Source: Tubulanus polymorphus (lineage: Eukaryota; Nemertea; Palaeonemertea; Tubulaniformes; Tubulanidae). Taken from it: a stretch of 64,000 nucleotides of DNA. The position numbers and the translations under genes are program-made. Positions 17,110-64,000 of the stretch are shown piece by piece. The first letter of the stretch is position 1. Each line of letters starts with the position of its first letter. The stretch spans positions 13,358,450-13,422,449 of the forward strand of contig NC_134026.1 in assembly GCF_964204645.1 (NCBI RefSeq), given 5' to 3'. The notes under the pieces are model-generated. The model was not told the DNA's origin, did not search any database, and saw only the letters and a list, made by a program, of their open reading frames with translations.

Positions 17110-17985
17110 AACTTTTAAGAATACCTATAAATGAACCATTTTCACTGTTATTGCCATCTTGATATTTGGGCATCATTAATTTGCAAACATCCGTCTTATC
17201 ATATAGATTTTTGTCTTTTAGTAATGCATTTTCAGATCTAAATTTTGATGATATTTCATGAATATTAAAATCACTTTCTGTCCTAAAATATAAATCTATT
17301 TGTTTTTTTTAACCACATTTAATGTTCATTTTCATCTTTTTTATAGTATAATAGATCTATCAGATTTTCACCATCATATTTTTCTCTTAAATATAAAGCT
17401 TCTAATTATAATTGCATTAATTCGAATACATTTATTTTTAAATTATTAACTTTTTCTACTTTAGGAATCAATTTTATAGTTTCTGCATATTGATCAATTT
17501 TATATAATATTTCATATATCCGATAATCTGCTATTCTGCAAACAATTTTCCTCAGCAGGGTGTTAACAACAAATAATTGACCACAAAGACATTTATTATC
17601 TTCATTTTGAACATTTATAACTAACTGTTTTTTAAATAAATGGTAATTTGATATATGACGATGCTTCAATATCCTTTTCTGTTGTACATTTTGAATCATT
17701 AGTAATCATTTCATCACTATTTGATATTTTATTCCTTTTTGTATTGTAAATATTTAAATATAAAAATATGATTTCATTTAACGTTAAACCAGAACCCTCA
17801 AAATATCTTTCCTCAATATGACGCATAAATTCATTTAATATTTATTTCTAATTTCTCTTTTATTTGTGTTTTTGAAATTATTTCTTCAGAATGTGTTTGA
17901 ATATTACAATCCATTTTTTTATTCATCTGACTTAATAAAACTTAAAGAGCAAATGCCATCAAAATAGAATATTGTGTAAAATTCA
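17110..17985 (-). pseudogene. Maverick DNA polymerase B, N-terminal segment (element D, part 2)
   Basis: Reading the minus strand gives blocks that match the polymerase relic of element E at 45.8-45.97 kb (IQTHSEEII, then ERYFEGSGLTLNEIIF) and then continue past it with NEDNKCL, RIADYRIYEI, KVNNLKINVFEL and YDGENLIDLLYYK. The last blocks are characteristic of the segment upstream of the exonuclease domain in Maverick-type protein-primed DNA polymerases. Frames are broken in at least four places. It probably continues the gene at 20.375-21.02 kb, with ~2.4 kb of other DNA inserted between. Confidence 0.65.
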
Positions 17986-18590
17986 TTTTCAAATGTGATG
18001 TATTCACAAATATCAAATATGGAACTGGTTTGAATTTTAGTTCAGCCATTACTGAGAAATATCACTTTTAAATCGGAAATTTCAGCACGAGCTCACTGTT
18101 ATTGTTTATGTTAGCAGGTGTGTGTTTCTGACGTCATCTCTGACAAACGCTCGCCGCTTCCAGTCATTTCACTAGACATTTCATGCGGTATTTTATCGTT
18201 TTAGGAGTGATTTGAATAAATAAATTCTTGCCATTGTTAGTGTTGCTACCGTTGTATTATGCCATGATAATCGTATATAAGTGAGTAGCACTGTAGGTCA
18301 GTGAATACGGTGAACAAATGATGTTTATTTTATCGATTATACATAGGCTACGCGTACTAGCGCACACATGTGCTAGTGTTGATTGTCATAGTTAACATCA
18401 TAAATAGCGCCACCCGCGGGTTGAATATGAACTATACGCACGGAGTGAAGGATAAATAGATAACTATTCCACTAACTATTACGGCTTATTCGTACTCCTT
18501 TTTTCAATAAGTCACATCTCAGGTCGCTATATGTATACTAAAGTTTCTTCTGGTTAAGAAATCGGGGAAAGTACAATTTTGATGACTACC
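17986..18590. other. Noncoding insert inside polymerase D
   Basis: About 600 bp between the polymerase remnant and the fold-back element show no recognisable coding region. A TGACGTCATCTCTGAC patch near 18,131 and a microsatellite-free AT-rich remainder are all that I see. Confidence 0.35.
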
Positions 18591-20374
18591 TTTAAGGTAG
18601 GGGCATATGAACGTATTTTTTCGCCCGATCGCGGCGAATTTATAAATCGCCCGAAAAATTCTTTCGTGTGGCCATTCACGGCGACGACGATTTCGCGGCC
18701 GACTCGATCGCCCGGCGAATCGCCGTATCAAACATGTTTGATATTTTGCCCCGATTATTTACGCCGGGGATCGAATAGTCCGCAAAATCGATCGTCTGCC
18801 CGCAATCCATTTTTGTTGATATCGTGTGATTTGTTAAAGGGTAACTGACACTTTTTTTTATTTCAAAATATGATGTATTCTATTGATCTATACACTCATC
18901 TTCAACCGTTCTGTTCCAAAATGTTTAGTTTACGCGCAATTTGTGATTTTGTAACAAGATTTTTGACCTCATTTCGTTGTTTACATCGCTTACTGTTCAG
19001 CGTCGGCTAAATCAGCAGGTGCGCGCTGCAACGTCATTACAGGCAGAGCTGAGAAATAGCGTCTATAGAAATGCGTTGAATTTTGAGGAAACTGCGTGTA
19101 TTTTCTGTTATATCTCAATGCCAGATTGTTTTACAGCCTTGAAACTGGCCAGGGAGGTAAAAGGATCTATTGTCTATTGCATAAACCTATTTCAAAGAAT
19201 CAATGAGTAATTTGAATAGGCAAAATCGATCAAATTGAAGATGCAGATTTCAATCCGCTGCTATGAAGCTATTAAAGTACACTATGCTAAGCTCTCAGCA
19301 CTGTTACTGTTGCTGCATAATTCACCTATAGTTCAGCACAACAAGCATACTACACAGTGTCTTATAAGCGATCACAGATTTCGATCTCGCTAAAGAATAA
19401 ATAGATTCATATTCGTTTACTATTTACTATTTTTCATAGTCATTTAAGACTAAGTAGTTTGAAAACTAACACTTCAAAACTCTACAAAAACTTTCATAAA
19501 TTTCTACAGCCTTTACAACAAATATTCAAAGGAATAATGTTTTTCGATTAAAGTTTCACGCTGCAGAAGAGTTTTGATAGATTACATCACAAATCTTAAA
19601 CAAACATTATTTCGAAGTTTTAAAATAGGATGGATGAGGAAATATTCTAATTTTGTGACCAAAGCCGCTACCAATACGAGGTATATTTCAAGAAAAGAAT
19701 TGAAATTGTTCTTGCGGCTAATTCTGTCTAAGTTTCATCAGTTCATAAGTCAAAATATTCTTAGATGTAACCATGATCTTACTATCACTAAATGATAATA
19801 CAAAACGATGATTTAAACATCCGTGTTCCTGGCTGTCTACTAGAAAATGCCATGGATTGCTATTCAAATCCTATTTTTGCGCTTAGTTTGAACGGATATG
19901 GTCCGTTCAACAGCTAATTATAATCATTAATATGTAGACTTTCAAAATCAAGAGACATTTTGTCTGAATTCGAATGCCAAATAGGTATAAAATTAAGTTG
20001 AATTGCTCTTGTAGCTTAATCATTTCCGAGCCGTCACGTACTTTAGTGACGTAGTTCTATTAATAGGCACAGTACCACGCGTTCAGCAGAAGCAATGTAT
20101 ACACTGAACAGGTGCGCGAACATCAAAATCATCAATTCTGACTAGATTGAAAAGATTTTTCCAATTATGAAATCACCTAGCCTTATTGTATAGTATAATA
20201 TATCGTTTAGTGTAAAAAGTAGAAAACCTTTAAAAAAGTGTCAGTTACCCTTTAACTCTCTTACTAAGTGGCGGTCGCACCGAATTCAGGTTTGATCGCT
20301 ACGTAAGGCGTGAAAATTCGCCAGCGAATTTTATCGTCGCGATCTGGCGAAAAAATATGCTCGTCTACCTTTAC
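18591..20374. mobile_element. ~1.8-kb fold-back DNA element with long inverted ends
   Basis: The left end TTTAAGGTAGGGGCATATG, followed by TATTTTTTCGCCCGATCGCG, is mirrored at the right end as the complement of TAAAGGTAGACGAGCATAT and TTTTTTCGCCAGATCGCG. Both arms also share GTTAAAGGGTAACTGACAC further in (18,834-18,852 and ~20,238-20,253). The right end directly abuts the broken DNA polymerase of element D, so this element or an event associated with it split that gene. The open frames on both strands in the left arm are an artefact of the GC-rich arm. No transposase is encoded. Confidence 0.65.
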
Positions 20375-21024
20375 TTTTCTGAAAGATTTATTTTTGGATA
20401 TTCAACATCTGTTAAAAATCCATTATTTTTTTCCATTATATCAATAAATTTACTATAATCTTTTATTGTTGTCCCTTTAAAGAATTTAAGTTGCAGGACC
20501 AATTTTACTACGAATTGTTTCTGAAATTTCAATTGTATGTTTTATTTCTAATCAACCAATATATTTTCTAACATTTTCCATACAATAATTATTTGAAATA
20601 GATTCAGTTTTTTCAATAGAATTTTTTACTTGAGAATTATCATCAAAATATTCTGTTCCTAAAATATTCATACTTAAATTTTGTTGATGTTTTTGTGATA
20701 TCTATCATAATTCCTTTTTGTTTCAAATTCATTACAAACTTCACATTTGGTTTCATCTATTTTCATGTTCTTTAATTGTTCTTTTCTTTCCCTGGAATTT
20801 TCTGGAAGTTTCTATATAATCTATAACATGTTTTACAGTTTTTTCATGTCGAGATTTTTGGGATTTAATAGTGTATTATTTACAATATGGTCAATAATAT
20901 TCATTTTTATTAACATAATTTCCATCATCTTTAAACTCTTTCCCATTTTACAAGGAAACAAATTATGATGAGTGATGTGTCGAACTCTCGACCTCTGATC
21001 TGAAAACGCCATTTTGTAAATGCT
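20375..21024 (-). pseudogene. Maverick D terminus and start of its DNA polymerase B gene
   Basis: The minus strand starts at the element end (AGCATTTACAAAATGGCG, then TTTTCAGATCAGAGGTCGAG) and runs through AATTTGTTTCC to an ATGGGAAAGAG start at about 20,947. This matches the left end of element E (45,105-45,190), including the ATGGGA start. The following protein text (KSRHEKTVKHV, KKRTIKEHEN, GTEYFDDNSQVKNSIEKT, RSKIGPA) is colinear with the zinc-finger-containing N-terminus at 45.2-45.65 kb. Stops and shifts are frequent. The reading breaks at 20,375 against the fold-back element. Confidence 0.7.
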
Positions 21025-21149
21025 GTATCATCAATATATAAAAAGTCCACTTGTAAATTCGACAGCAAATGTTGTACAAATCTACTTATGTTGTGTTTAC
21101 GTTAGTAGACCAAGATGACGTACACGAACTCAAAACTCCGTTCAATACT

Positions 21150-21669
21150 AATAGATTTAGCTTTATATAATTTCCAGATGTTTTAGCTAACATTTCAACC
21201 TATGAGTTTTTTTCACAACAATTTTTTAAATTTTTGATATTAATTTCTTCTATTTTATAAAATAGCTGTTTAATGAATAAATGTGCGTCACAACCACTTA
21301 AAAAATAATAAAAAATTATGAAATATAACAGGAACAAAATAAATCTTTTTAGCTTGTAAATTACAATGTTCATGTGCTGCACCTCTAAATCTCGCCATTT
21401 AAATGATCACGATCTCTAACTTTCTTATCAAACGAATAAAATACTTTTTCACAATAAAAATATTTATCTGAAAAATTAAATTCTTCTTCATCATCTTCTG
21501 TCATTATAATTTCTATATGTGTACTAAATTTCGTTTCATATTCAATTAACAAGTCCCAAAAATTAATAGCATTTTGAGATCTATAATTATAATATTCACT
21601 TTCAATTAATTTTGGGTAATCTGAATTCATATATAATCCGAAAGCTGCAGCACTTTGATGAATTCTCAT
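21150..21669 (-). pseudogene. Separate Maverick DNA polymerase B fragment (zinc-binding to exonuclease region)
   Basis: A 94-residue open piece ends YFYCEKVFYSFDKKVRDRDH followed by LNGEI. The motif C..(C)..F...KVRDH.HL.G, then (R)GAAH..CN, is the usual link between the N-terminal part and the 3'-5' exonuclease domain of Maverick-type polymerases. In shifted frames it continues with NLQAKKINFV and AHLFIKQL, then EMLAKTSGNYI, matching 46.87-47.05 kb of element E. It lies outside the terminus of element D (21,024), so it comes from another copy or from a rearrangement. It is adjacent to a LINE reverse-transcriptase scrap at 21,703. Confidence 0.65.
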
Positions 21670-29544: not shown

Positions 29545-29859
29545 ATGGAAAATATAAAAGAAACATTCACAAACATATTAAAATATTATGTGGATAATAA
29601 AATAACAGATTTTATCAATTATGAATTCTTTTTAAATAAGATTGTAAATTTTTTAAACATCGATATTATAATTCCATTTGATGAATTAACAAACAAAAAG
29701 AAACAAAGAAAGCGAGATGAAATGTGGAATGATATAGAATTTTATTTAAATGAGAAAAATGAAATGGAAGAACCTAAAGAAATTATAGGAAAACAATTTG
29801 ATGAATGTGAAGAAACCAATAGTGATTTCGAATATGATGATATTGATTTTCTGTTTTGA
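29545..29859 (+). CDS. Maverick A small acidic protein, unknown function
   Basis: The frame is open over 104 codons, starting 12 bp after the stop of the zinc-ribbon gene. It is mostly helical, with a basic patch (TNKKKQRKRDE) near residue 50 and a very acidic, aromatic C-terminus (DFEYDDIDFLF). An intact frame in a decayed element could mean late decay by chance. No family is recognised. It does not carry the TAAATG context of the minus-strand genes. Confidence 0.45.
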   Translation: MENIKETFTNILKYYVDNKITDFINYEFFLNKIVNFLNIDIIIPFDELTNKKKQRKRDEMWNDIEFYLNEKNEMEEPKEIIGKQFDECEETNSDFEYDDIDFLF

Positions 29860-29930
29860 TGGCCATAAGGTAATGTTTTTATTCCATCACCCAAAATCTA
29901 TCTTTTAAACTAGTTTTTTCAAGATTTAAA

Positions 29931-30490
29931 CTAGTTTTTTTCAACTTCATTAATGTACATCTCGTGGTCTTCTGATCTTAAACAATTCATTTTATGTTTC
30001 ATTACAATTGAGTTATATAAACACTTTATATAATCTTGATATTCTATATGATTATCAACCACATGTTTTGTTATTCCTTTTAACTTTTTAGCTTCATGAT
30101 CTTTTGTTCTATAACTATACATTTTACTTCTTATCCCAATAAATTCAATCATTTCATCACCCCCTAATTCATCTTTAAATTTACCAGGCTGCTTTTTATT
30201 ATCATTGCTAAATAATTCATGATCTTTTGGATAATTGCTAAAATCAAAATGATGTTTTAATGTTTTTAAGTCTTTTGTTATGTCATTTGTCTTGATTATT
30301 AGTATGTACGCATCCGTATGGACTAGGATTAATGGAAACCCAGAATTGAATGTTCCATCTTCAGTTGATAAATCATAAACATAATCAGTTGGGTTATATA
30401 TTTCAAATAAATCTTAAACTTCTTCAGTTAACTCATTTTCTACATAGCTTGAATTAAAACAAAATACCATACCATTTTAAAATACCATTT
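29931..30490 (-). pseudogene. Maverick A DNA polymerase B C-terminus with C-terminal end of an intein
   Basis: From 30,490 downward, the first ~40 codons end in DYVYDLSTEDGTFNSG followed by LILVH. That is the usual form of intein C-terminal blocks F and G, which end VHN before the extein. The next residues, TDAYILIIKTNDITKDL, continue the polymerase at the TDS half of the YxDTDS motif. HFDFSNYPKDH, GKFKDEL, EFIGIRSKMYSY and KKLKGITKHVV follow, all standard for the C-terminal palm and thumb of Maverick-type polymerases. The terminal intein Asn and the Ser of TDS are lost and one stop is present, so it is dead. The upstream side is cut by the Penelope-like element. Confidence 0.75.
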
Positions 30491-30596
30491 TCCTAAATTA
30501 TGTTTTGCATTTAATACATAATCTTGCACTATACGAGTAAAATCCCACAATAAAAGAATTAGATGATAAAATGTTTATTAAAACATATAAGAAATA

Positions 30597-30693: not shown

Positions 30694-31113
30694 TTACGTT
30701 ATGGAGACTAGAGCACTGACATAACTTGAAAGAAGTTTATTATGGGGGCTGAAACCATTATTTAGTTTGACAGAACGATCGGAATGAGTAGTAATTAAAG
30801 CAGATTCAACTATATGTCGTTTAGTGCGACTACTGTTGGAAAAGATAATATTGGCTCTAGAAAAATCAAAATTGTGTCCGGTAACCAAAGAATGGGAGAC
30901 TACCCCACTTTCTAATTTAACCCCATTAAAAAAATCTCGTTTATGTTCTTTAATACGATCCTTAATATTCCTACCGGTTTCCCCAATGTAAAAAAGGTTA
31001 CAATCAGAACAGTTGATTTTATAAACATCACAATGGACATTAGGGTTCAGATTGTTATTGGAGCAAAAATTAGAAATTTTCTTATTATACTTGAAAATCA
31101 AATAAGTATTCAA
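30694..31113 (-). CDS. GIY-YIG endonuclease domain of the Penelope-like element
   Basis: The frame is open for 139 codons. The domain starts VYKINCSDCNLFYIGETGRN (residues ~31-50), where the YIG-equivalent is FYIGETGR. It continues with IKDRIKEHKRDF, SHSLVTGHNFDF (His of the domain) and RTKRHIVESALI, carrying the catalytic Glu. A CxxC precedes the YIGETGR motif, typical of Penelope-type nucleases. It normally nicks target DNA for target-primed reverse transcription. The frame is broken at its junction with the reverse transcriptase, so the copy is not active. Confidence 0.75.
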   Translation of the reverse strand: MNTYLIFKYNKKISNFCSNNNLNPNVHCDVYKINCSDCNLFYIGETGRNIKDRIKEHKRDFFNGVKLESGVVSHSLVTGHNFDFSRANIIFSNSSRTKRHIVESALITTHSDRSVKLNNGFSPHNKLLSSYVSALVSIT

Positions 31114-31119
31114 ATGACG

Positions 31120-31780
31120 AAGAGCCGGTTTGAATTTGTCAAGGCAAGGGACAAAAGGAACTATAATTTTGTTTTTGGGTTTTGTTTTTGAGTCTAGGTT
31201 GGGCAGGAGAAAAATACTTTTTTGGCTTTGTGAAGGGCTTTCACTAAAATCTTGTCAGGGTATGCAAGTTTTTTGAAACTTGATTGAATATGTAAAATGT
31301 CATGTTCTAAAAAGTTTTTATCACAAATCCTATGAGCCCGAAGGAAAAAACCTTGAACAACGGCCACTTAAAGGTAAGTTGGAGTGAACGAGAAGAAATG
31401 TAGGTAGGATTCACAGTTAGTAGGTTTACGAAAAACAGAGAAACCTAATCTCGAATTAGAATTATGTATGAGAACATCCAGAAAAGGGCATTTTCCCGTC
31501 AACTTCAAGGAAGGATAAAAGGAATTGAGATATGTCAAAAATAATTCAAGGTTAAAATCAGTTGATACTAAACGTCAAATGTCATCAACATACCTGAGCC
31601 ATAGAAGAGGCGCGAACCAAGTGTATAGGGGTAAAATTTCCGATTCAATATGTTCTAAGGAGAGGTTAGCTAAAATCGGCGAGAGGGGGTCAACCATAGC
31701 GAAACCATATATTTGCTCAAAGAAAATGCCATAACATTGAAAATAGTAAAATCTTTTATGTAATAATTCATCTCCAAAAT
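31120..31780 (-). pseudogene. Penelope-like reverse transcriptase, C-terminal half
   Basis: Minus-strand blocks are DPLSPILANL (RT motif B region), LWLRYVDD (the catalytic YVDD, at ~31,580-31,600), CPFLDVLIHN, SVFRKPTN, FFLRAHRICD and LAYPDKIL. These match the order of Penelope-like transcriptases, and KALHKAKK leads into the endonuclease. At least two shifts or stops are present, and everything upstream of motif B is missing. Confidence 0.75.
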
Positions 31781-45104: not shown

Positions 45105-45201
45105 AGTAATTAGAAAATCAGGGTTTCAGGCCAGAGTACGAGAGTACGACACATCACTCATCACCACTTTTAATTTGTTTTCCTTATCAATGGGAGAGAG
45201 T

Positions 45202-45970
45202 GACTACCAATGAAAATATTATTTTCCATATTATAAAAAATACGTCAATAAATCAAATAAATCTCATCATGAAAAAACTGTAAATCATTTAAAAAAATCT
45301 AATAGATTTTGAAACCCCAGAAAATTCCAATGAAAGAAAAGAACGATTAAATGGAATGAAAAAAGATGAAATTAAATGTGATGTTTGTAATGAATTTATA
45401 GTAAAAAGGAATTATAAAAGACATCTTGAATCACAAAAACACCAACAAAATTTAATTAAAACTATTTTAGGAACAGAATATTTTGATGATCAATCTCAAG
45501 TAAAAAAACCAGTTTCAAAAACTAACCCTATTTCAAATAAACCTCATAAGGAAAATGTTAGAAATTACATTTATTCACTAGAAATAAAAGATACAATTGA
45601 AATTTTAGAAACATTACGTGGTAAAATTGGACCTGCAGCTTGAATATTTAGATGTTTTAAAGGCACAACAATAGAAGATTATAGTAAATTTATTGAAATA
45701 ATGGAAAGAAATAATGGATTTTGTAATATATGTCGAATATTCAAAAATAAGTATTGCTGGAAAAGTGAGTTTTATAAAATCAGAAGAATAGATGGAGTAT
45801 AATATTCAAACACATTCTGAAGAAATAATTCCAAAAACACATATAAAAATTAGAAAAAAAATATTTAATGAATTTGAAGAAAGATATTTGGAAGGTTCTG
45901 GTTTAACATTGAATGAAATTATATTTTTAGATTTATATATTTATAATACAAAAGGAATAAAAAATCATTA
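45202..45970 (+). pseudogene. Maverick E polymerase N-terminus with C2H2 zinc finger
   Basis: The best open part is 45,356-45,643 (95 codons). Near its start it contains CDVCNEFIVKRNYKRHLESQ followed by KH, a C-x2-C-x12-H-x5-H finger, then GTEYFDDQSQVKK and LETLRGKIGPA. Afterwards, in shifted frames, IQTHSEEII and ERYLEGSGLTLNEIIF match the 17.1-18.0 kb remnant. N-terminal fingers in front of a protein-primed polymerase could bind the element's ends, but that is speculation. Confidence 0.65.
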
Positions 45971-46849
45971 AGTGGTTTATTATGTTTTACATCTGCCTGC
46001 AAATGTTCTATGACGATGTTGATTGGGAGGACCACAGACTTAAGGTCAATATGTGTTAGTACGATTTCATTTATGCTGAAAATGAATTTCACTTTTCTGC
46101 CGAACAATTAAGCCTAGGTTATTTGTACTGTTAAACCTCATTAATGCGATTCTGTTAAAAAGACGAAACTAGGTTATTCTGATGTTTTCCATCATGTCCC
46201 AGCCAAGATATTTATATCATTCAAGATTTGGATACAACCGCCCATTTTTTTCGCATGAACTGTTAGGCCCTACCGAATAATTACACCAAAAACAGAACGA
46301 GTTTTCTGAATGCATAACAGGTACACAGCCAGCAGGACGCGAACCCACTTGTCGTCACTTGTTTTCGGCGTACTTAACAATGATATTTTCCTCCAATAAA
46401 CAACTCTGGTAAAATTTAATGAAATGATCTATCTTTATCGGTGATATCGTATCAAGTCGATGGCCTACCGTTTACCGTTTGATGTTTCGTGTCATCATGA
46501 AATGGTTTTAACTTTAGTAAAGGCGTTCCCGCACGATCAAATAACTTTACGGGTTTCAGCCAAGAGTAGGCCTGCCGTTCCACTGCCCTAGAAATATGTA
46601 TTCTGACGCGGAGAATCAATCCCAATTAATCCCATAGCTACAGATAGTTGGAATAAAAGTGATATTCAATCACTTTGATATTCATAAATCGGAGGTACAT
46701 AGTTTTATGTTTATCTATTCAGAACAGGCCAATCCCAATTATTCATTGTCAATGTCAACGCGAACGTATCACTACGCGATTATTTAACCCGTTCTCGTCT
46801 ACCACATAACTAACGAGAAAAATGCGATAGAATAACTTTTTGGACCATT
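45971..46849. other. Unrelated insert between two polymerase blocks of E
   Basis: About 880 bp of more GC-balanced sequence without coding features separates the N-terminal and exonuclease parts of the polymerase. No terminal repeats or target duplication were found, so it is either an old insertion or a rearrangement. Confidence 0.4.
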
Positions 46850-47660
46850 GAATCAGCACGTGAGAATTGTAACTTACAAGCTAAGAAAATCAATTTTGTT
46901 CAAGTTATATTTCATAATTTATCAGGGTATGATGCACATTTATTTGTCAAACAGCTATGTCATAAAATAGAAGAAATCAATAACGAAATAGAAAGATTAA
47001 ATTCAAATAATCAAAAGATGTTGCTAAAATACCAACTTATGAATTTAAAATGTTAGCTAAAATATCTGAGAATTATATATGTTTCCAATTTGGATGTCTA
47101 AGATTTATAGATTCATACAGATTTTTAAGTAGTTCATAAGACAATTTATCAAAATCATTAGTTGATGATGAATTAAAAATATTAAAACAACATTATCCAA
47201 ATAATGATGATTTTCAATTAATGAGATATAAAAGCGCGATTCCATATTCATTTTATAAAACTCATAATGATTTTTATATAACTGAATTATTAAAAGAACA
47301 ATTTTATGATGAATTAAGATCCGTATATGTTAAAGATGAAGTTTATAATGGAACATTGAATATTCGGAATCATTTCAACACAAAAAATCATGGACAATTA
47401 GTAGATTTATATTTAAAATCAGATGTATCATTATTAACTGATATATTTGAAAGGTTTAGAGATGTAAATCTAAAATATTTTAATATTGATCCATGTCATT
47501 GTCATTCTAGCCCAGGATTAACTTGGGATTGTGGTTTAAAATTTACAGATATAAAAATGGATTTATAAACAAATATAGATCAATTATTATTATTTGAAAA
47601 ATGTATAAGAGTAGGAGTTTCTGGTGTATTAGGTGATAGATATTTTAATTATTTTTAGGT
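46850..47660 (+). pseudogene. Maverick E polymerase B exonuclease region, paralogue 1
   Basis: The sequence reads NLQAKKINFVQVIFHNLSGY, AHLFVKQL, FKMLAKISENYICFQFGCLR and IPYSFYKTHNDFYITELLKE, then DLYLKSDVSLLTDIFERFRD and SSPGLTWDCGLKFT. The last blocks are the usual text before palm motif A. Breaks are few. It ends at VSGVLGDRYFNYF, where a second, different polymerase copy begins further upstream in the gene, so two diverged paralogues are fused head to tail. Confidence 0.7.
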
Positions 47661-48381
47661 GATTATCATTTAAATTCAAAATATCTTGGAGCTGCTCATA
47701 AAGATTGTAATTCACAAGCTAAAAAAGTAAATTTCGTACCAATATTATTTCATAATTTATCAGGATATGGTACTCATCTATTAATAAAACAATTATCAGG
47801 AAAATTAGGCGCATTTAATCAAGAAATAGAAGAATATAATGCTATAAATGACGCAAATATGAGAAAATGTGATTTTAAACTACTAGCTAAGACATCTAAA
47901 AATTACATTTCATTTCAATTTGGTTGTTTGAGATTTTTAGATTCTTATAGATTTTTAGCAAGTTCATCAGATATTTTAGCAAAAGGTTTAAGTGATACTG
48001 ATTTTGTAATGTGTGATTTTGTATGATTTTTGAGGTGCAATTCCTTATTCATTTTATAAAACACCTGATGATTTTAATGTAACAGAATTATCAAAAGAAC
48101 AATTTTATGATCAATTAAAAGAGGAGTACGTGAAAGATGAAGTTTTTAATAGAACAATACATATTTGGATCATTTTAAGATAAAAAATCATGGTGAATTA
48201 GTAGATTTATACTTAAAATCACATGTTATGATATTGGCTGATATATTTGAAAAAATTAAGAAAGTTAATTTAAATCATTATAATGTTGATCCTTGTTATT
48301 GTTATTCAAGTCCTGGTTTAACTGCAATGTGGTTTAAAATATACAAATGATATACAAATACAATTAGATGTTTTAAAAGAA
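47264..48381 (+). repeat. 1,118-bp direct duplication, copy 1
   Basis: It appears identical to 48,646-49,763, offset 1,382 bp. It spans the end of polymerase paralogue 1 and most of paralogue 2. It ends with TTTTAAAAGAA and is followed by six unmatched bases and then a copied piece of downstream sequence. Confidence 0.9.
47661..48381 (+). pseudogene. Maverick E polymerase B exonuclease region, paralogue 2 (first copy)
   Basis: The sequence reads LGAAHKDCNSQAKKVNFVPI, LLAKTSKNYISFQFGCLRF, IPYSFYKTPDDFNVTELSKE and DLYLKSHVMILADIFEKIK, then CYCYSSPGLTAMWF. It is clearly diverged from paralogue 1 (about two thirds identical by eye). It is followed by the second duplication copy, and only that copy continues into the palm domain. 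Confidence 0.7.
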
Positions 48382-48387
48382 TTTTAG

Positions 48388-48645
48388 AAGATTTTACCCA
48401 AGAATGAATCATATGTCATTTGATGAAATAATCGACAATATTTATAATATAGAACCAGAAACATTAGAAGAAAAAGATTATTTTATTAAAGGATTTCTTA
48501 TGGGAGATGGTTCAGCAGGTTTGTATAATTATGTTTGGAACAGTTTGTAAGATCAGTACCCGAATTATCGTACATTATCAAAGAAACACTGGATTTTGTT
48601 TTTACACAGCATTGTCATCTTCTGTCAGATTTACACAGAGAGTGG
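48388..48645 (+). repeat. 258-bp copied segment of 50,980-51,237 (intein/transposase junction)
   Basis: It is offset by 2,592 bp and appears identical. It includes the LAGLIDADG-like intein part (FIKGFLMGDGSAG) and the start of the Harbinger transposase relic. It sits exactly between the two duplication copies, so it was copied when the duplication formed. Confidence 0.9.
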
Positions 48646-49763
48646 ATAATGATTTTTATATAACTGAATTATTAAAAGAACAATTTTATGATGAATTAAG
48701 ATCCGTATATGTTAAAGATGAAGTTTATAATGGAACATTGAATATTCGGAATCATTTCAACACAAAAAATCATGGACAATTAGTAGATTTATATTTAAAA
48801 TCAGATGTATCATTATTAACTGATATATTTGAAAGGTTTAGAGATGTAAATCTAAAATATTTTAATATTGATCCATGTCATTGTCATTCTAGCCCAGGAT
48901 TAACTTGGGATTGTGGTTTAAAATTTACAGATATAAAAATGGATTTATAAACAAATATAGATCAATTATTATTATTTGAAAAATGTATAAGAGTAGGAGT
49001 TTCTGGTGTATTAGGTGATAGATATTTTAATTATTTTTAGGTGATTATCATTTAAATTCAAAATATCTTGGAGCTGCTCATAAAGATTGTAATTCACAAG
49101 CTAAAAAAGTAAATTTCGTACCAATATTATTTCATAATTTATCAGGATATGGTACTCATCTATTAATAAAACAATTATCAGGAAAATTAGGCGCATTTAA
49201 TCAAGAAATAGAAGAATATAATGCTATAAATGACGCAAATATGAGAAAATGTGATTTTAAACTACTAGCTAAGACATCTAAAAATTACATTTCATTTCAA
49301 TTTGGTTGTTTGAGATTTTTAGATTCTTATAGATTTTTAGCAAGTTCATCAGATATTTTAGCAAAAGGTTTAAGTGATACTGATTTTGTAATGTGTGATT
49401 TTGTATGATTTTTGAGGTGCAATTCCTTATTCATTTTATAAAACACCTGATGATTTTAATGTAACAGAATTATCAAAAGAACAATTTTATGATCAATTAA
49501 AAGAGGAGTACGTGAAAGATGAAGTTTTTAATAGAACAATACATATTTGGATCATTTTAAGATAAAAAATCATGGTGAATTAGTAGATTTATACTTAAAA
49601 TCACATGTTATGATATTGGCTGATATATTTGAAAAAATTAAGAAAGTTAATTTAAATCATTATAATGTTGATCCTTGTTATTGTTATTCAAGTCCTGGTT
49701 TAACTGCAATGTGGTTTAAAATATACAAATGATATACAAATACAATTAGATGTTTTAAAAGAA
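48646..49763 (+). repeat. 1,118-bp direct duplication, copy 2, with polymerase paralogues
   Basis: It appears identical to 47,264-48,381. It contains the same tail of paralogue 1 (to ~49,040) and paralogue 2 (49,041-49,763). This copy runs on without interruption into the polymerase palm region. Confidence 0.9.
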
Positions 49764-50654
49764 CCAGACATGGTTTTATTATTTGAAAAATCAATTAGAG
49801 GTGGAATTAGTGGTGTTATGGGAGATAGGTATTTTAAAGCAAATGATGAATATAAATTATTATATATTGACGCCAATAATTTATATGGTTGGGCAATGAT
49901 GCAACCTCAACCATATAAAAATTTTATATTAACAGAAGTTGAAAATAATAAAACTAATTGGGAAAGCGCAATTATGAGTTTAGAAGATGATGCTCCAATT
50001 GGTTATTTCTTTGTATTTGATTTAGAATATCCTGAAAATATAAAGTTTAAAACAAGAAACTTACCTTATTGCCCAGAACATTTAGCCGTAGATGATAGTT
50101 ATCTAAGTGAATATCAGAAAAAAATAAAACCGAAAGACCATGTTTTTACAGAAAAATTATCATTAACACAAAATAATAAATATATTGTTCATTATAGAAT
50201 GTTAAAATTTTATCTAAAACAAGGAATGGAATACAAGAAAGTGCATAGATATATTGAATTTAATCAATCGAAGTGGTTAGAAAAATATATAGATTTCAAT
50301 ACTCAACAGAGAACAATATCTAAAGCAGATTTTGAAAAAGATTCTTTTTAATTAATGAATAATAGTTTTTTAAGGCAAAACATGTGAAAATATTAGAAAT
50401 ATTAATGATATTGAATAAGTAAATAATTCTGAACGATTGAGACATTTACAATCAAGTCCTAGACACTTAGGAAATAAAAGATTTGAAGATTATTTATCAG
50501 CAGTAAAGTTAAAAAGAACGTCAATGAAATTTAATAAACCTATATTCATTGGTTCAAATGTTTTAGAAATATCATAATTATCAATGTATGATTTTTATTA
50601 TAATGTTTTACAACCACTTTTTGGGGAAAACATATTGAAATATTATATTTTGAT
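49764..50654 (+). pseudogene. Maverick E DNA polymerase B palm region
   Basis: The piece from 49,770 is open for 193 codons: GVMGDRYFK, then LLYIDANNLYGWAMMQPQPY, which is palm motif A with the catalytic Asp and the NNLYG that replaces SLYP in protein-primed polymerases. YCPEHLAVDD, HYRMLKFYLKQGM and FNTQQRTISKADFEKDSF follow. In broken frames RHLQSSPRHLGNKRFEDYL, TSMKFNKPIFIG and MYDFYYNVLQPLFGEN lead to ILYFD, the first half of the YxDTDS metal-binding motif, at 50,643-50,654. The intein starts there. Confidence 0.8.
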
Positions 50655-51120
50655 TCTGTAACAGCTGATACCCCAATTTTATTAAAATATAATAATCAAA
50701 TGTAAATTAGAAGAATTTCAGAAATAATTCCTAAACAAAATGAACGTTATATTTCATATGGTAAAAAAGAATACAAATAAATGGATTAATGGATGTTTGG
50801 ACAAGAAATGGATGGAAAAAATTAAAGAATATTATTAGGCATAAAACGAATAAGAAAATTTATAGAGTTAGAACTAAGTTAGGGTTTGTAGATGTTACTG
50901 GAGATCACAGTTTAATTAAACAAAATTGTGATGAAATAAAACCAACTGATATAAAAATTGGAGATGAATTATTACATAAAAGATTTTACCCAAGAATGAA
51001 TCATATGTCATTTGATGAAATAATCGACAATATTTATAATATAGAACCAGAAACATTAGAAGAAAAAGATTATTTTATTAAAGGATTTCTTATGGGAGAT
51101 GGTTCAGCAGGTTTGTATAA
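50655..51120 (+). pseudogene. Intein N-terminal half in the polymerase YxDTDS motif, with endonuclease start
   Basis: Directly after LYFD the reading is SVTADTPILLKY, a standard intein block A beginning with Ser. After stops and a shift, the open frame 50,789-51,142 carries NGWKKLKNIIRHKTNKKIY, then VDVTGDHSLIKQ, block B with the T-x-x-H motif. Next come IGDELLHKRFYPRM and the LAGLIDADG-type block FIKGFLMGDGSAGLY. Inteins at this polymerase site are established in some large DNA viruses of protists. The remaining endonuclease and C-terminal blocks are lost at the transposase junction. The gene cannot be spliced in its present state. Confidence 0.8.
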
Positions 51121-51865
51121 TTATGTTTGGAACAGTTTGTAAGATCAGTACCCGAATTATCGTACATTATCAAAGAAACACTGGATTTTGTTTTTACACA
51201 GCATTGTCATCTTCTGTCAGATTTACACAGAGAGTGGTTTGACCTATCTCATCTAGTTAGTTATGCTACTGCAATTTCAATTAAAGGAGCCCCTCTACAG
51301 AATTGCTGGGGTTTCATCGATGGGACTGTCCGTTCAATTTGTCGCCCAAAATATAATCAGAATATCGTTTACAATGGCAATAAAAGAACTCACGCGGTGA
51401 ATTTTCTAGCCACAACTATACCAAACGGTATAATAGCCAAAATGTGGGGGCCTATTGAAGGCAGATGGCATGACTCTGGTATGCTCAGGGAGAGTTGGAT
51501 TTTGCCTGTAATCCAGGCAAGAATGAATGATGGAAACCGTAGGCCTATGTGTTTGTATGGGGATGCGGCTTACCCATCGTCTGATTATCTAATAGGCCCT
51601 TATAAAGGAGCTGTGCTTAATGAACCGGAGACGCAATTCAAGACAGATGTCAATTGTAAGAGTTCCCGTCAAATGGACGTTTAGTCAAATTGTCTTTGGA
51701 TTTTTAGATTTTAAGAAGAACGTAAAGCTGTATTTGCAGCCTGAGGGCAAATTATATTTAGTGGGGACTTTTCTTAGTAACTGCCGAACCTGCATATATG
51801 GCAACGAAACATTATCTTACTTTGAAATGCAGCCGCCAACATTAGACCGATATGTTAATGGATAA
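51110..51865 (+). pseudogene. PIF/Harbinger-type DDE transposase relic
   Basis: The frame from 51,127 reads VRSVPELSYIIKETLDF, GAPLQNCWGFIDGTVRSICR, VYNGNKRTHAVNFLATTIPN, EGRWHDSGMLRESW and YGDAAYPSSDYLIGPYKGA. These are the conserved segments of Harbinger (HARBI1-like, DDE_4) transposases, with catalytic Asp in FIDGT and HDSGM. A +1 shift near 51,620 leads to the C-terminal part (MSIVRVPVKWTFSQI, FLDFKKNVKLYL, CIYGNETLSYF). At the third catalytic position, where the family has Glu (VEW), there is Lys (VKW), so the enzyme is dead twice over. The N-terminus is cut at the junction with the intein. Confidence 0.8.
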
Positions 51866-52924: not shown

Positions 52925-53053
52925 GGGGCCAGTTGCTCAAAAGTTGGTTACAGTTAACCAGTGGATAGTTGACATAGTGACGATTGAAATATCATTGTTG
53001 CTATGGTATTTATCCGCCGGTTGTCTTTAACCAATTTTTGAGCAACTGGCCCC
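52925..53053. mobile_element. 129-bp MITE with GGGGCCAGTTGCTCAAAAG ends
   Basis: The left end GGGGCCAGTTGCTCAAAAGT continues TGGTTA and is mirrored by TAACCAATTTTTGAGCAACT followed by GGCCCC, with one mismatch. The interior also pairs in part. No target duplication is evident. The superfamily is not assigned. Confidence 0.8.
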
Positions 53054-53602: not shown

Positions 53603-53796
53603 AGCCCAACGCACACGGCACCGAAAAAACGTTTTTTCCTCGTGAAAAAACGTTTTCGATGTTTTTTTTGTTATGCCGTGTGCGGGGGAGGCAAAACAAA
53701 ACGCCGAACTTAAAATCGTTTTTCACTAGCAAAAAACGTTTCCTGAAAAACGTTTCTGTTTCTGCGAAACAAATGTTTTGCCGTGTGCGCTGGGCT
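53603..53796. mobile_element. 194-bp MITE, PIF/Harbinger-like (TTA target duplication)
   Basis: The inverted ends are AGCCCAACGCACACGGCA and TGCCGTGTGCGCTGGGCT (one mismatch), flanked by TTA on both sides (53,600-53,602 and 53,797-53,799). A 3-bp TTA/TWA duplication is typical of PIF/Harbinger. The interior has repeated AAAAAACGTTT words on both strands. The open frames over it are by-products. Confidence 0.8.
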
Positions 53797-54895
53797 TTAG
53801 CCGATACAAAAACTGATTTCGGTTGATGTCAAATGATAACTCACATGATAGTTTACAGTTTATTTTTATTATAAGTCGCACTGATTTTAGTTCTATGTGC
53901 ATTAGATATAGGTTTAAAACCCATTGATTCACGATACGAAATCCATTTATTAGGATAATTTTCCGTGAGGCTTTAGAAGGCACCATGGTGCTTTCTAAAA
54001 TGATTTCGTCTTGGTGTAGGGCCGGTAGGCCTACTGTAAATTAATAACATTAAATCAAAGAAATGGACAACAGTTCACTAACATATTTCTGATATCGTAC
54101 GATGATTTTAATAATTGAAAATTGGGCTAGGTGAGAGTCAAAATTGCGTTGTTACCATCAATTAAAGTATATAAATCGTTTAATTCGGCTCGGTTTACAT
54201 TCGGATTTTCACATATTTCGGACTAAAATTCAAGTCCCTTTACTAGGTTATTTCTGTTCAAATGAAAACACATTATTTGCATTTCGTCCAATTGACTGAA
54301 TTTCCCATCCCCTGCTGGTGATCCGAATTTAGCGAATTTTCTAATCTTTTGAGCAACTTTAATCGTTTTTATTTTGATTATTTTCCAGTTTTTGTTTTTT
54401 ATGTATTTTGCTATACATTTTTCTTATTGATAAAATAAATTTCAAACGTGAAAAAGTATTACTGTATTGTTTCGATCTTCACTTACAGGTTCAGTCGTGT
54501 GGGTAGATGGTCCAATTCTCTAAAATTCCGTGTATTCTATTCTCCACGGCCAGAACCAAAATCAAACTTTTGGGGTTTAATTAAACAACGGCAATAACGT
54601 TGCATGAGTGGAAATTACAGTTGGATGCTCTGATTGCACACCCGCTATGAACAGACCGCAAAGTAGGTATAAATTGCGTCCGAAGCATAATATGGAATTT
54701 GAACCTACTCACACTGTATGGCATTAGCTCGTCAAAAGATTCCGTTCACAAGCAAACATCAACCAAATTGCTCAATATATATGTTCCGTATATGTTCGGA
54801 GGTCTTCAGCCACGACAATAATTGTTGAGCTTCTGATTTTAATATAAGGCGGTCTTTTCACTTTACTGCAATATGAGTTACAATTTAACTAATAA
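53797..54895. other. Noncoding, no feature recognised
   Basis: No coding region or repeat boundary is supported. Confidence 0.35.
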
Positions 54896-61090: not shown

Positions 61091-61335
61091 GCAACTAGAA
61101 TTTAACTAGAATGTAACTAGAATTCAACTAGATTAACAAGCTACTTGCAATATTGTTGTTTTTGTTGATTTCTTGTTAAATCTAGTTGATTTTTGTTTCA
61201 ACTACTAACAACTAGAATTCAACTAGAATGTAAATAGAATTAAACTAGATTAACAAGCTAGTTAAAATATTGTTAAATCTATTTGATTTTTGTTACAAAT
61301 ACTAATAACTAGAATTCAACTAGATTAACAAACTA
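61091..61335. repeat. CTAGTT-rich tandem repeat upstream of the 201-aa gene (B)
   Basis: The same repeat as in element A (23,838-24,150): AACTAGAATTTAACTAGAATG and ACTAGATTAACAAGCTAGTT words with T-rich spacers, two to three units. It fills almost the whole gap between the ATPase and the 201-aa gene. Confidence 0.7.
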
Positions 61336-61951
61336 ATTGAATTTGAATAAATTCATATTTAAATGGGTGTTGTAATCTAAATAATAATTTTGATCTTTTA
61401 ATATTTTTCAACTTATCCATATATTCATTATGTAAATCATGTGGAATAATATCATTTTCCTCAAGTGCATTTTTCATCGATTTTCTATCTTTATTGTAGA
61501 ATAAAACTAGAAATCTAATGTTTTCTCTAAAGTCTTTAACAATTGAATTATATTTTTGATTTAAAACCCAAGTTGTTATCCCAAAATGGCTCCCAGATAA
61601 AGCTAAATAGCATAACTCACTTTCTCTAACTTTTGAATCATGTAGATTAGCACAATCATCTATAATGAATAATGTATTTGATCCTTTATAAATATCAATT
61701 GCTATTTTAATACAATTATCTAAATTTTCTTTTACTGTTTTAGGATCTAATATAATAAATTTATTATTCCTAGTAATATTTCTATCATAAGTTTGATTAA
61801 ATTCACATGTTGGGCAAAATAATACTATATTATCAAAATAGTTTTCATAAACAGTTTCTAATAAATTTAATATAAAATAAGTTTTTCCACAATTTGTTAC
61901 ACCAGAAATTAACATATTATGAGGCTCAAATATGAATAATTCCTTATTCAT
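61325..61951 (-). CDS. Maverick B FtsK/HerA-like packaging ATPase, 208 aa
   Basis: An intact P-loop ATPase. Walker A is GVTNCGKT at residues 17-24, Walker B is LFIIDD at 94-99, and a Gln at 132 in WVLNQK sits where these packaging ATPases have a sensor residue. Length fits the compact Polinton/virophage-type DNA-packaging ATPases, which pump DNA into capsids; its presence is the usual sign that Polintons derive from viruses. The integrase stop codon TAA is immediately followed by this ATG. The start is within ATATATAAATGAAT. Confidence 0.9.
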   Translation of the reverse strand: MNKELFIFEPHNMLISGVTNCGKTYFILNLLETVYENYFDNIVLFCPTCEFNQTYDRNITRNNKFIILDPKTVKENLDNCIKIAIDIYKGSNTLFIIDDCANLHDSKVRESELCYLALSGSHFGITTWVLNQKYNSIVKDFRENIRFLVLFYNKDRKSMKNALEENDIIPHDLHNEYMDKLKNIKRSKLLFRLQHPFKYEFIQIQLVC

Positions 61952-63076
61952 TTATATATTTTTAATTTTAGTTGATAATATCCATTCATTGAATTTATCT
62001 GGCCATCCAACCCATTTTACTAAAGAATATTTTTTTCTTTTAATAGTTTTTGTTTTTAATACTTTTTCAATTTTATATTCTTGTTCTAGATTTTCAGTAG
62101 TTAAACTTAATTCTTCTTCGTAAAAGTAGCCATGAACTTCTTCACCATCTAAATCTTCTAATTTATAGACATATGGTTTTGTTGTTATTACCTTTTTTAT
62201 TTTATATATTTCCCTAGTAAAATTTCGATCGTATCCTTTATCAAATATCTTTTTATACTTAGAAATTCTAACATTTTGACCAACTTTAAATTTAGGTTCA
62301 CCAAAATCATCTACAAGAAATGCTCCATATGAATTATTCCAAACAATTTCAGCATTTTCAGGTTTTCTAGCATCAATAGGTTTCATTCCAATAGAAGAAT
62401 GATAAGAATTATTATATCCTTCTATCAATTTTGGTAAAACATCAATCCATTTAAAAGTATTATTTGCTGTAAAATATTTCCACATTCTTGTTCTTAATGT
62501 TCTATTAAATCGTTCAACAACTGCTGCTTTTTTATCTGATTTTGTTGAAAAATATTTAATATTATGATTGTCTAAGAGTTCATGAACAAGTGAATTATCA
62601 AACTCTTTTCCATCATCAAATTGTATTTTTTCTGGTTTTAGTTTATCATCCAAAAGAAATTTTCTTAAAACATTTGATGTTTGTACAGCATCTTTTCTAT
62701 AAAGTGGGAAGCTCCATACATAACGACTAAAAATATCAATTATATTCAATAACCACCAATAATCATCATTATCTTTCTTAACATATTTCATATCAATTAA
62801 ATCTCCTTGCCACTGTTGATCTACATAACTTACCATAGTTTTACGAGTTTTATATTTTCTAACAATTTTTTTATGTGTTGTATATGTTGGTTGTTCTAAC
62901 ATAAATTCATTTATATCTTTATATTTAACTAAATTTTGTGGGATTATCTTATCTAATTTATCTTGTTTTACTTTACGCCATATATTTTTAGTAGAAGAAT
63001 AAGCAACCGAACTCTCAGGGTTGTAATATAAATTTCTTAAATATTGTTCTTTAGTATTAGGAGTTTTTTTTACCAC
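61952..63076 (-). CDS. Maverick B retroviral-type integrase with C-terminal chromodomain
   Basis: 374 codons are open. The rve core has catalytic Asp in WQGDLIDM (~92), Asp in FDDGKEF (~154) and Glu in VVERFNRTLR (188), an intact DDE triad. A chromodomain follows at residues ~333-374 (YKIEKVL, KKYSLVKWVGWPDKFNEWIL). The integrase inserts the element with a 6-bp target duplication, and the chromodomain probably guides it to certain chromatin. The open frame starts at GTG. However, ATATATAAATGGG lies six bases upstream in another frame just before a run of eight A, so a one-base insertion has probably shifted the true ATG out of frame. Confidence 0.9.
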   Translation of the reverse strand: MVKKTPNTKEQYLRNLYYNPESSVAYSSTKNIWRKVKQDKLDKIIPQNLVKYKDINEFMLEQPTYTTHKKIVRKYKTRKTMVSYVDQQWQGDLIDMKYVKKDNDDYWWLLNIIDIFSRYVWSFPLYRKDAVQTSNVLRKFLLDDKLKPEKIQFDDGKEFDNSLVHELLDNHNIKYFSTKSDKKAAVVERFNRTLRTRMWKYFTANNTFKWIDVLPKLIEGYNNSYHSSIGMKPIDARKPENAEIVWNNSYGAFLVDDFGEPKFKVGQNVRISKYKKIFDKGYDRNFTREIYKIKKVITTKPYVYKLEDLDGEEVHGYFYEEELSLTTENLEQEYKIEKVLKTKTIKRKKYSLVKWVGWPDKFNEWILSTKIKNI

Positions 63077-63128
63077 CCATTTATATATCCTTAATTTTAA
63101 CTTTATATTTCTAATATTGAATACTATC

Positions 63129-64000
63129 TTATTGTGAATTTACAATATTTAATTGCGCGTCAGATATAATATAAATATGCATTTTAAAATTTAAGCTTCC
63201 TTTATTCTTTGTCATGAATAATTGTATTCCATCTTTAGTGTTCTGTAGTTTTTTCCCAGAACCATGTAATGAATTATCCTCTGTTGTTCTAAAATCTAAC
63301 CATAATGCATATTTATTGCCGGTATAATAATCAATTTGATTAATATTACAATTTTCAAATGATTTTACTTTTTCATTCATAAAATGTTTTCTAATTTCTG
63401 GCCACTGATCTATCATTCTCATTCCTTGGCAAAATATTTTATTTGCTATTCCTTCGATAGTTATTTCTACTTTTGTTATTTCAGGATTATAATAATTGTC
63501 TACCTTTATTGCACCATTAGAATATGTTGCAATAGTAAAAAATATTAATATTCTTTTAATAGATCTTCTTGGGAAGTTAATATTCTCATTCATTATTTCA
63601 TCATTTGCATTAATAGTTACAGTTTTAAATTTATCAATATAATCATATAATAATGAAAATCCTTGATTGTATTGAGTTTGAATTATACTTGAAATATTTT
63701 CATCAGTTACTGTATCATATTCTAAACATATATTCGATAATTTATAACTCATATCTTTAACAACGCTAGATAATACAATTTCATTTACAGGAGCAAATGT
63801 TATCTCAAATATAATATCTTCTTGAATTGCGTATTTATATAAAGGTGCATTATTATTTATCAATTCAAAATCTAATGGAATTTTATATTTGTTTCCATAA
63901 ATCTTTTTAATCAAATTATCTGTGGCACGAGTTACTATTGCGTCATTAGCTCCTGATCTTAATTTATTATGGTTTTCCGATTGGATGCCTTGAAATATCA
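63129..64000 (-). CDS. Maverick B major-capsid-like protein, C-terminal part (truncated by window)
   Basis: The frame is open from the window edge to TAA at 63,129, ~290 codons visible; the ATG lies outside. Blocks are IFQGIQSENHNKLRSGA, IPLDFELINN, YAIQEDIIFEITF, LSNICLEYDTVTDENI, MRMIDQWPEIRKHFM, NKYALWLDFRTTEDNSLHGS and MHIYIISDAQLNIVNS. These conserved C-terminal features and its place next to the integrase and ATPase fit the double jelly-roll hexon-type capsid protein of Polintons. The corresponding gene in A suggests ~750 codons in all. Confidence 0.75.
   Translation of the reverse strand, partial: IFQGIQSENHNKLRSGANDAIVTRATDNLIKKIYGNKYKIPLDFELINNNAPLYKYAIQEDIIFEITFAPVNEIVLSSVVKDMSYKLSNICLEYDTVTDENISSIIQTQYNQGFSLLYDYIDKFKTVTINANDEIMNENINFPRRSIKRILIFFTIATYSNGAIKVDNYYNPEITKVEITIEGIANKIFCQGMRMIDQWPEIRKHFMNEKVKSFENCNINQIDYYTGNKYALWLDFRTTEDNSLHGSGKKLQNTKDGIQLFMTKNKGSLNFKMHIYIISDAQLNIVNSQ

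Follow-up and report, generated by a model that had tools for sequence, protein, structure and literature searches.

Results

A decayed polymerase joined to part of an intein

The window is a stretch of 64,000 nucleotides from Tubulanus polymorphus (positions 13358450-13422449 of contig C2, in a searched genome of 267.8 Mb and 77 contigs). On its forward strand it holds the remains of a Polinton/Maverick polymerase gene (pPolB) that run into part of an intein, and further polymerase, intein and Polinton pieces lie on the reverse strand (Table 1). The forward-strand pPolB is broken by stops and frameshifts and carries within it a tandem duplication at an offset of 1,382 bp; its match to DNA_pol_B_2 among the Pfam profiles, at 47140-47565, stays under the cut-off (E=0.00098). 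Polymerase text reading IEILYFD stops at 50654 and SVTADTPILLKY begins at 50655 with a gap of zero, just as the earlier note had read this junction. The start of the intein reads SVTADTPILLKYNNQM and then meets a stop, leaving the frame open for only 16 codons. Reading resumes at about 50771 in another frame (VWTRNGW...VDVTGDHSLI...FIKGFLMGDGSAG), and the stop-to-stop ORF 50765-51142 includes both the T-x-x-H block (VDVTGDHSL) and the LAGLIDADG block (FIKGFLMGDGSAG) picked out in that note.

Block A (SVTADTPILL), block B (VDVTGDHSLI) and the first LAGLIDADG motif (FIKGFLMGDG) can be recognised in the intein piece, the match ends at 51133, and blocks F and G are missing, which agrees with the earlier view that only an N-terminal part is left. 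The range first given for it, 50643..51120, begins in polymerase text, which continues until 50654; the intein itself starts at 50655. Alone against Pfam Intein_splicing, the piece reaches E=0.001 and 19.4 bits, the curated cut-off being 35.8. Positions 50655-51133 align at 89.5% identity with intein nucleotides 1-485 of L010, an uninterrupted copy in the same genome; because of this alignment, and because the L010 frame lies over curated profile cut-offs (see below), the window match is far above chance. Judged from these features, the segment is a fossil remnant, the N-terminal portion of a LAGLIDADG intein of class 1 at YFD|TD (motif C).

The locus has been further rearranged. The transposase fragment fused to the cut-off intein is one that we take to be Harbinger-like, and the smaller intein duplicate at 48389..48541 sits in a 261-bp duplicate (48385-48645) of 50977-51237, which comprises intein and transposase parts, at an offset of 2,592 bp. 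The 1,382-bp repeat covers about 1.1 kb of pPolB within 47264-51237, and the 300-bp and 261-bp repeat pairs are 100% identical; these repeats represent either a recent duplication or an assembly error. In the second, reverse-strand intein copy, His replaces the terminal Asn, and the GIY-YIG ORF that parts its pieces resembles a fragment of a Penelope-like element. The integrase and packaging-ATPase genes lie about 10 kb away from the intein relic on the opposite strand. Elsewhere in the window, a 60-bp inverted repeat (52925-53053; 78% complementary, 9-bp loop) resembles a small MITE-like element, and repeated palindromic stretches of A-runs and T-runs of the CGTTTTTT type were seen by eye at 53620-53800.

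Table 1. Polymerase, intein and transposon features of the window
Feature	Positions	Strand	Evidence
Decayed Polinton/Maverick pPolB, up to YFD of motif C	45190..50654	+	tblastn with L010 frame
Intein, N-terminal ~161 of 355 codons	50655..51133	+	tblastn with L010 frame, Pfam
DDE_Tnp_4 transposase fragment, fused to cut-off intein	51121..51684	+	PF13359 7.3e-13
Duplicate of intein part around first LAGLIDADG motif (codons ~111-161)	48389..48541	+	direct repeats, tblastn
Second intein copy, C-terminal pieces, block F YVYDLSTEDGTF	30318..30532	-	tblastn
32-bp piece of second intein copy	31746..31777	-	tblastn
GIY-YIG ORF within span of second intein copy, parting the two intein pieces	30694-31254	-	PF01541 2.5e-5
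C-extein of second pPolB copy, TDAYIL... to polymerase C-terminus, decayed	29859..30317	-	tblastn
More pPolB fragments, 38-88% identity to L010 frame, many stops	17156-21666	-	tblastn
Polinton-type integrase, rve core and sub-threshold chromodomain	61952..63139	-	PF00665 2.2e-10; PF00385 0.0011
Polinton-type packaging ATPase (Pox_A32 family)	61325..61951	-	PF04665 1.4e-11; phrog_2666 terminase large subunit 3.8e-9

A many-copy intein family in an animal genome

A six-frame search of the genome with PF14890 gave 53 places at E<=0.001, none of the 53 over the curated cut-off; the same search found matches in 6 of 14 control genomes, as expected for intein-bearing prokaryotes. A search with the L010 intein scored 114 copies of 624 candidates, which lie on every one of contigs C1-C12 and on five small ones. 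Inspected by eye, intein-bearing copies occupy the broad interior of large contigs and are not near the ends. A count of rows gave 80 scored copies that are stop-free in the matched part and 34 with stops, and 11 of the 114 lie in uninterrupted frames of 1,686-1,690 aa. The L010 frame (P0001 in the protein comparisons) is 1,689 aa long and carries a 355-residue intein that spans residues 1184-1538 and separates FD from TD. It exceeds the curated cut-offs of PF14890 (1.7e-10), PF14528 LAGLIDADG_3 (3.7e-5) and TIGR01445 intein_Nterm (4.1e-6), and these profile matches, together with blocks A, B, F and G, all of which are present in uninterrupted copies, bear out the intein assignment of the earlier note. 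Among solved structures, the archaeal intein PI-PkoII is the closest in sequence (6.4e-7); a solved-structure search with the polymerase part returned no credible match.

The undivided L010 frame, intein included, was not reported against PF03175 (DNA_pol_B_2) at E<=0.1; the N-extein alone matches that profile at 1e-17 (64.7 bits). This match favours the proposed Maverick-type polymerase, the window also holds integrase and packaging-ATPase genes of Polinton type, and we regard the host gene as of Polinton/Maverick type (PF03175), probably protein-primed like its family. A viral contig scan yielded 4 loci at 24-39% identity. That the genome is an animal's is upheld by 39 Wnt exon matches (best 1.1e-64; found in 0 of 14 control genomes). 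In addition, mir-2 matched at 12 places, 7 of them over the gathering score, and one control of the 14 (Caulobacter) matches below it. To our knowledge, Wnt genes occur only in animals and mir-2 only in protostomes, so the host is a protostome animal.

Intein-bearing and intein-free alleles

Flank searches supplied the best 150 of 1,343 candidates for the N-flank and the best 150 of 1,424 for the C-flank, and pairing these rows gave 94 loci. A full-size gap of 1,040-1,090 bp separates the flanks at 82 of them, 7 have a shorter gap in between, and 5 are empty (gap 0 or 3), a distribution that speaks for an insertion and against ordinary polymerase sequence. Junctions were read base by base in the 5 empty and in 69 of 70 intein-bearing copies. 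The five empty copies read TATTTTGAT|ACTGAC (in one, ATTGAC), and intein-bearing copies have their insert between the same two codons; the intein-free alleles are precise and represent clean empty sites. The empty copy with Ile in place of Thr has an open frame of 1,333 aa, and the frames of the other four measure 497-1,234 aa.

Conserved residues and the last intein junction

Residues were counted over the 70 intein-bearing members of a set of 75 distinct copies (the other 5 empty) taken from 40 of the 94 paired regions and from the profile and intein searches; these are best-scoring rows and a non-random sample, with denominators that vary with alignment coverage. Two of the inteins, L034 and L035, are identical. 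Ser1 of block A is present in 70/70 copies, and Thr83 and His86 of block B (TxxH) each in 69/69. The LAGLIDADG aspartates are Asp150 of FFMGDG (69/69) and Asp262 of YAADG (65/68). Asn355 of block G occurs in all 56 covered copies, the alignment stopping short of it in 14 of 70, and Thr+1 follows in 69/69. The block-F His is replaced by Gly in 67/68 copies, and the residue preceding Asn355 (n=66) is Lys in 46, Val in 15, Phe in 3, Gln in 1 and Thr in 1, with His absent. Since Gly in block F and Lys-Asn are common in other PolB inteins too, the combination is presumably compatible with splicing; given the missing block-F and penultimate His, splicing may possibly be weaker.

At intein codons 354-355 an A-run is one base shorter in 8 (L020, L038, L042, L071, L078, L079, L080 and L084) and longer in 2 of the 69 junctions read, and base-level reading showed L075 to be without two bases at the last intein junction. 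The run marks a slippage hotspot, sequencing error or a tolerated frameshift. In several main-family copies the C-extein lies in a separate 164-aa frame. A frameshift signal for this frame was rejected when the base-level reading gave A-run length changes instead, and because of these changes slippage or sequencing error is enough to account for such frames.

Selection, mobility and competing explanations

Taken together, the family very probably represents a homing intein of class 1, with a LAGLIDADG endonuclease, placed between the Asp and the Thr of YxDTD in a Polinton/Maverick polymerase, a parasite of a transposon that occupies two Polinton families; we infer splicing, cleavage, homing and present activity from sequence. 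The 355-residue intein would excise itself from the polymerase precursor by an acyl shift at Ser1, attack by Thr+1 and cyclisation of Asn355, and splicing would yield a whole polymerase even though the gene is split at its catalytic centre. In other Polinton copies, polymerase genes that lack the intein would be cut by the intein's endonuclease, and repair with an intein-bearing copy as template would place the intein in the cut gene. The outcome would be a parasite of a transposon spread across animal chromosomes, in two Polinton families.

Selection was assessed in 30 main-family copies (435 pairs), which also served for the correlations below; the copy L008 was set apart, 39 of the 69 others were dropped as broken or incomplete, and 7 of the 30 used as clean carry a length change at the last intein junction. 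Pooled over the 435 pairs, dN/dS came to 0.235 for the intein, against 0.055 for the N-flank and 0.131 for the C-flank; in the endonuclease core (codons 126-300) it was 0.27. These values show purifying selection on the intein. Four long frames differ by a dS of only 0-0.07 over codons 1-800, and amplification was therefore recent. These values bear on the idea that the intein is real and inactive everywhere today, a recent fossil in decaying polymerases. We consider this somewhat unlikely: the window copies are broken, a good number of the scored copies carry stops and full-length frames are few, as such a fossil would have it, but those eleven full-length frames are uninterrupted, the four long frames point to recent amplification, and the intein has a dN/dS well below one.

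A homing intein would be expected to pass between elements, and the second Polinton family, here family B, bears on this. Its intein-bearing copy L008 differs from the main family by flank dS values of 0.98 and 1.00 and by an intein dS of 0.25; L008 is the one sequenced copy behind this cross-family comparison and is itself broken upstream. Six intein-free B copies, chosen by intein-free frame length, are as near to the L008 flanks as to one another. Among the best 150 of 1,431 candidates in a search with the L008 C-flank, 30 lie in frames of 1,350-1,360 aa and none in a longer one; 1,350-1,360 aa is the size of an intein-free polymerase. Two more L008-like inteins are 95% and 91% identical, both with stops, and a B-type C-flank stands beside the 91% one. 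The plain reading of these sequences is that the intein would have moved between Polinton families long after their split, and an intein in a second family with flank dS near 1.0 and intein dS of 0.25 is as homing predicts.

Within the main family, flank distances correlate across the intein (N-flank codons 51-100 against C-flank codons 1-50, r 0.61, permutation p 0.0005), as do those of the two intein halves (r 0.40, p 0.0005). Intein and flank distances are uncorrelated (r -0.09, 0.14 and -0.08; p 0.77, 0.07 and 0.75), and by this measure the intein has a history separate from that of its flanks. Correlations between neighbouring 60-codon blocks inside the intein are weak (r -0.04 to 0.21), so Polinton copies recombine anyway, and free recombination among them, with no endonuclease, could yield part of the independence of flank and intein. 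An intein carried vertically, which entered one Polinton lineage once, multiplied with the element, and was shuffled and taken to the second family by ordinary recombination rather than homing, would suit both this recombination and the presence of the intein in most paired copies. We nevertheless hold such a history to be rather improbable: the two flanks have a common history in which the intein between them takes no part, between the families the intein shows a quarter of the dS of either flank, and the retained LAGLIDADG aspartates and constrained endonuclease core are unexpected for a useless domain.

Two other explanations fare far worse. Homing-endonuclease domains have been reported in polinton pPolB, nematode polintons included, in passages of one paper (PMC11071308), and the insert might be a bare, non-splicing nuclease insertion of that kind or an ordinary insertion domain of the polymerase; the near-invariant Hint blocks A, B, F and G and the precise empty alleles rule against both and leave this highly improbable. 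Contamination or an assembly artefact, for instance giant-virus or protist DNA, is scarcely credible for the family, the possible assembly error in the identical duplicates of the window locus apart, and was rejected because every one of the twelve largest contigs, C1-C12, carries intein copies; among these contigs, Wnt exons lie on C1, C3, C4, C5, C7 and C9 and mir-2 matches on C2, C3 and C4.

A belt of diversity around the insertion site

Main-family dS by window was 0.02-0.12 at codons 704-1063 except at 824-863 (0.25), the windows at codons 704-863 being based on 22-23 of the 30 copies. It was 0.32-0.59 at codons 1064-1183, 0.07-0.27 within the intein, 0.32 at codons 1539-1578 and 0.06-0.09 beyond, and dN was at most 0.064 throughout. 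The belt takes in about 360 bp upstream and about 120 bp downstream of the site, where the copies are mosaics of blocks that they have in common. At C-flank codons 6-12, a block like that of family B is present in 3 of 5 empty copies as against 1 of 68 full copies (Fisher p 0.0006). Family B served as a comparison for the belt with six copies over 300 codons, where pS ranged from 0.02 to 0.42 and rose mildly towards the site, and it is a weak control.

We tentatively suggest that this pattern may record a natural homing drive in an animal germ line, an account we would put somewhat below an even chance. The endonuclease would cut intein-free Polinton polymerases; repair from diverged copies or synonymous escape would have made the belt, and family-B tracts would have restored empty alleles. 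As the family-B control is small and not flat, this account of the belt stays a bold reading.

Relatives of the intein

A protein search gave 107 matches, and the tree comprises 61 inteins, 55 of them selected by coverage, length and junction rules and 6 being our own copies. The nearest matches, with their identity over the intein, are P0002 (61%), P0003 (48%), P0004 (46%) and P0006 and P0007 (41%), followed mostly by PolB proteins of PF00136 type; from their Pfam make-up, the matches of PF00136/PF03104 type are probably from giant viruses. Where the alignment reaches them, the junctions of the relatives are D|S on the N-side and N|TD on the C-side, at the same place in motif C. The exception among the matches is P0082, a gyrase-type protein with a partial match. 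Our six copies form one clade with P0002, P0003, P0004, P0006 and P0007 (support 96/98), within which the L008 intein is sister to the five main-family inteins sampled. This clade of inteins from PF03175-type polymerases stands next to PolB inteins that occupy the same site.

Four of these relatives also have an N-extein homologous to that of P0001. The N-extein of P0002 is 55% identical to that of L010 over 602 positions, and the N-exteins of P0002, P0003, P0006 and P0007 are 41-57% identical to P0001 over about 570-630 positions. BLAST gave no significant match between the P0004 extein and P0001, although P0004 bears PF03175 (precomputed for P0002-P0004 only), and P0004 is therefore another kind of PF03175 polymerase. 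The P0003 cluster, whose intein occupies the same site, counts 136 member sequences, a number that hints at a further many-copy genome.

Discussion

Metazoan genomes are stated to lack inteins in passages of two papers (PMC5784728, PMC6805012), one of which calls this absence 'a puzzle yet to be explained'. In the open-access literature, covered by titles, starts of abstracts and passages and with subscription journals mostly outside, we found no description of a LAGLIDADG intein in an animal-genome Polinton. The suggestion in the earlier note that the finding may be new holds to that extent, but intein invasions had already been suggested for nuclease insertions in polinton pPolB by a passage in a 2024 paper (PMC11071308), and relatives are present in the protein database. 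The mechanism belongs to a kind already known; what looks new is its setting, together with the copy-number genetics.

The genome of a single animal holds over a hundred inteins (114 scored), placed in a polymerase thought to be needed for replication of the element, which suggests a route for inteins into animals by way of viral polymerases. Because full and empty alleles stand side by side, homing, loss and resistance become open to study in an animal germ line, and the system would offer a natural parallel to gene drives and to the alleles that resist them.

Among known systems, P0002, P0003, P0004, P0006 and P0007 have an intein at the same site, the evidence on copy number and empty alleles coming from Tubulanus only. 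PolB inteins of giant-virus type share the D|T site in motif C (YGD|TDS), Ser1, Asn|Thr and a LAGLIDADG endonuclease, and often also the block-F Gly and a Lys ahead of the Asn, at about 24-40% identity to the Tubulanus intein in whole-intein alignments. Their hosts are PF00136/PF03104 polymerases, whereas the Tubulanus intein sits in a PF03175 polymerase with many copies in animal chromosomes. The insertions in nematode polinton pPolB likewise place a selfish nuclease domain in a polinton polymerase. They are reportedly, in the account of Jeong et al. 2023, of HNH and VSR types, in contrast to the LAGLIDADG endonuclease of Tubulanus, which sits in motif C and is combined with a Hint splicing domain that is complete. 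Homing-endonuclease domains, LAGLIDADG and others, also occur in protein-primed elements related to polintons, the mitochondrial linear plasmids; these belong to fungi and plants and not to an animal, and the passage that describes them names no inteins (PMC10583447). Finally, the Hint fold is known from animals in Hedgehog/Hint domains, according to a passage in one of the papers cited above (PMC5784728). Hedgehog joins cholesterol to its N-terminal part and does not join two exteins, whereas the Tubulanus intein has both a C-extein and an endonuclease.
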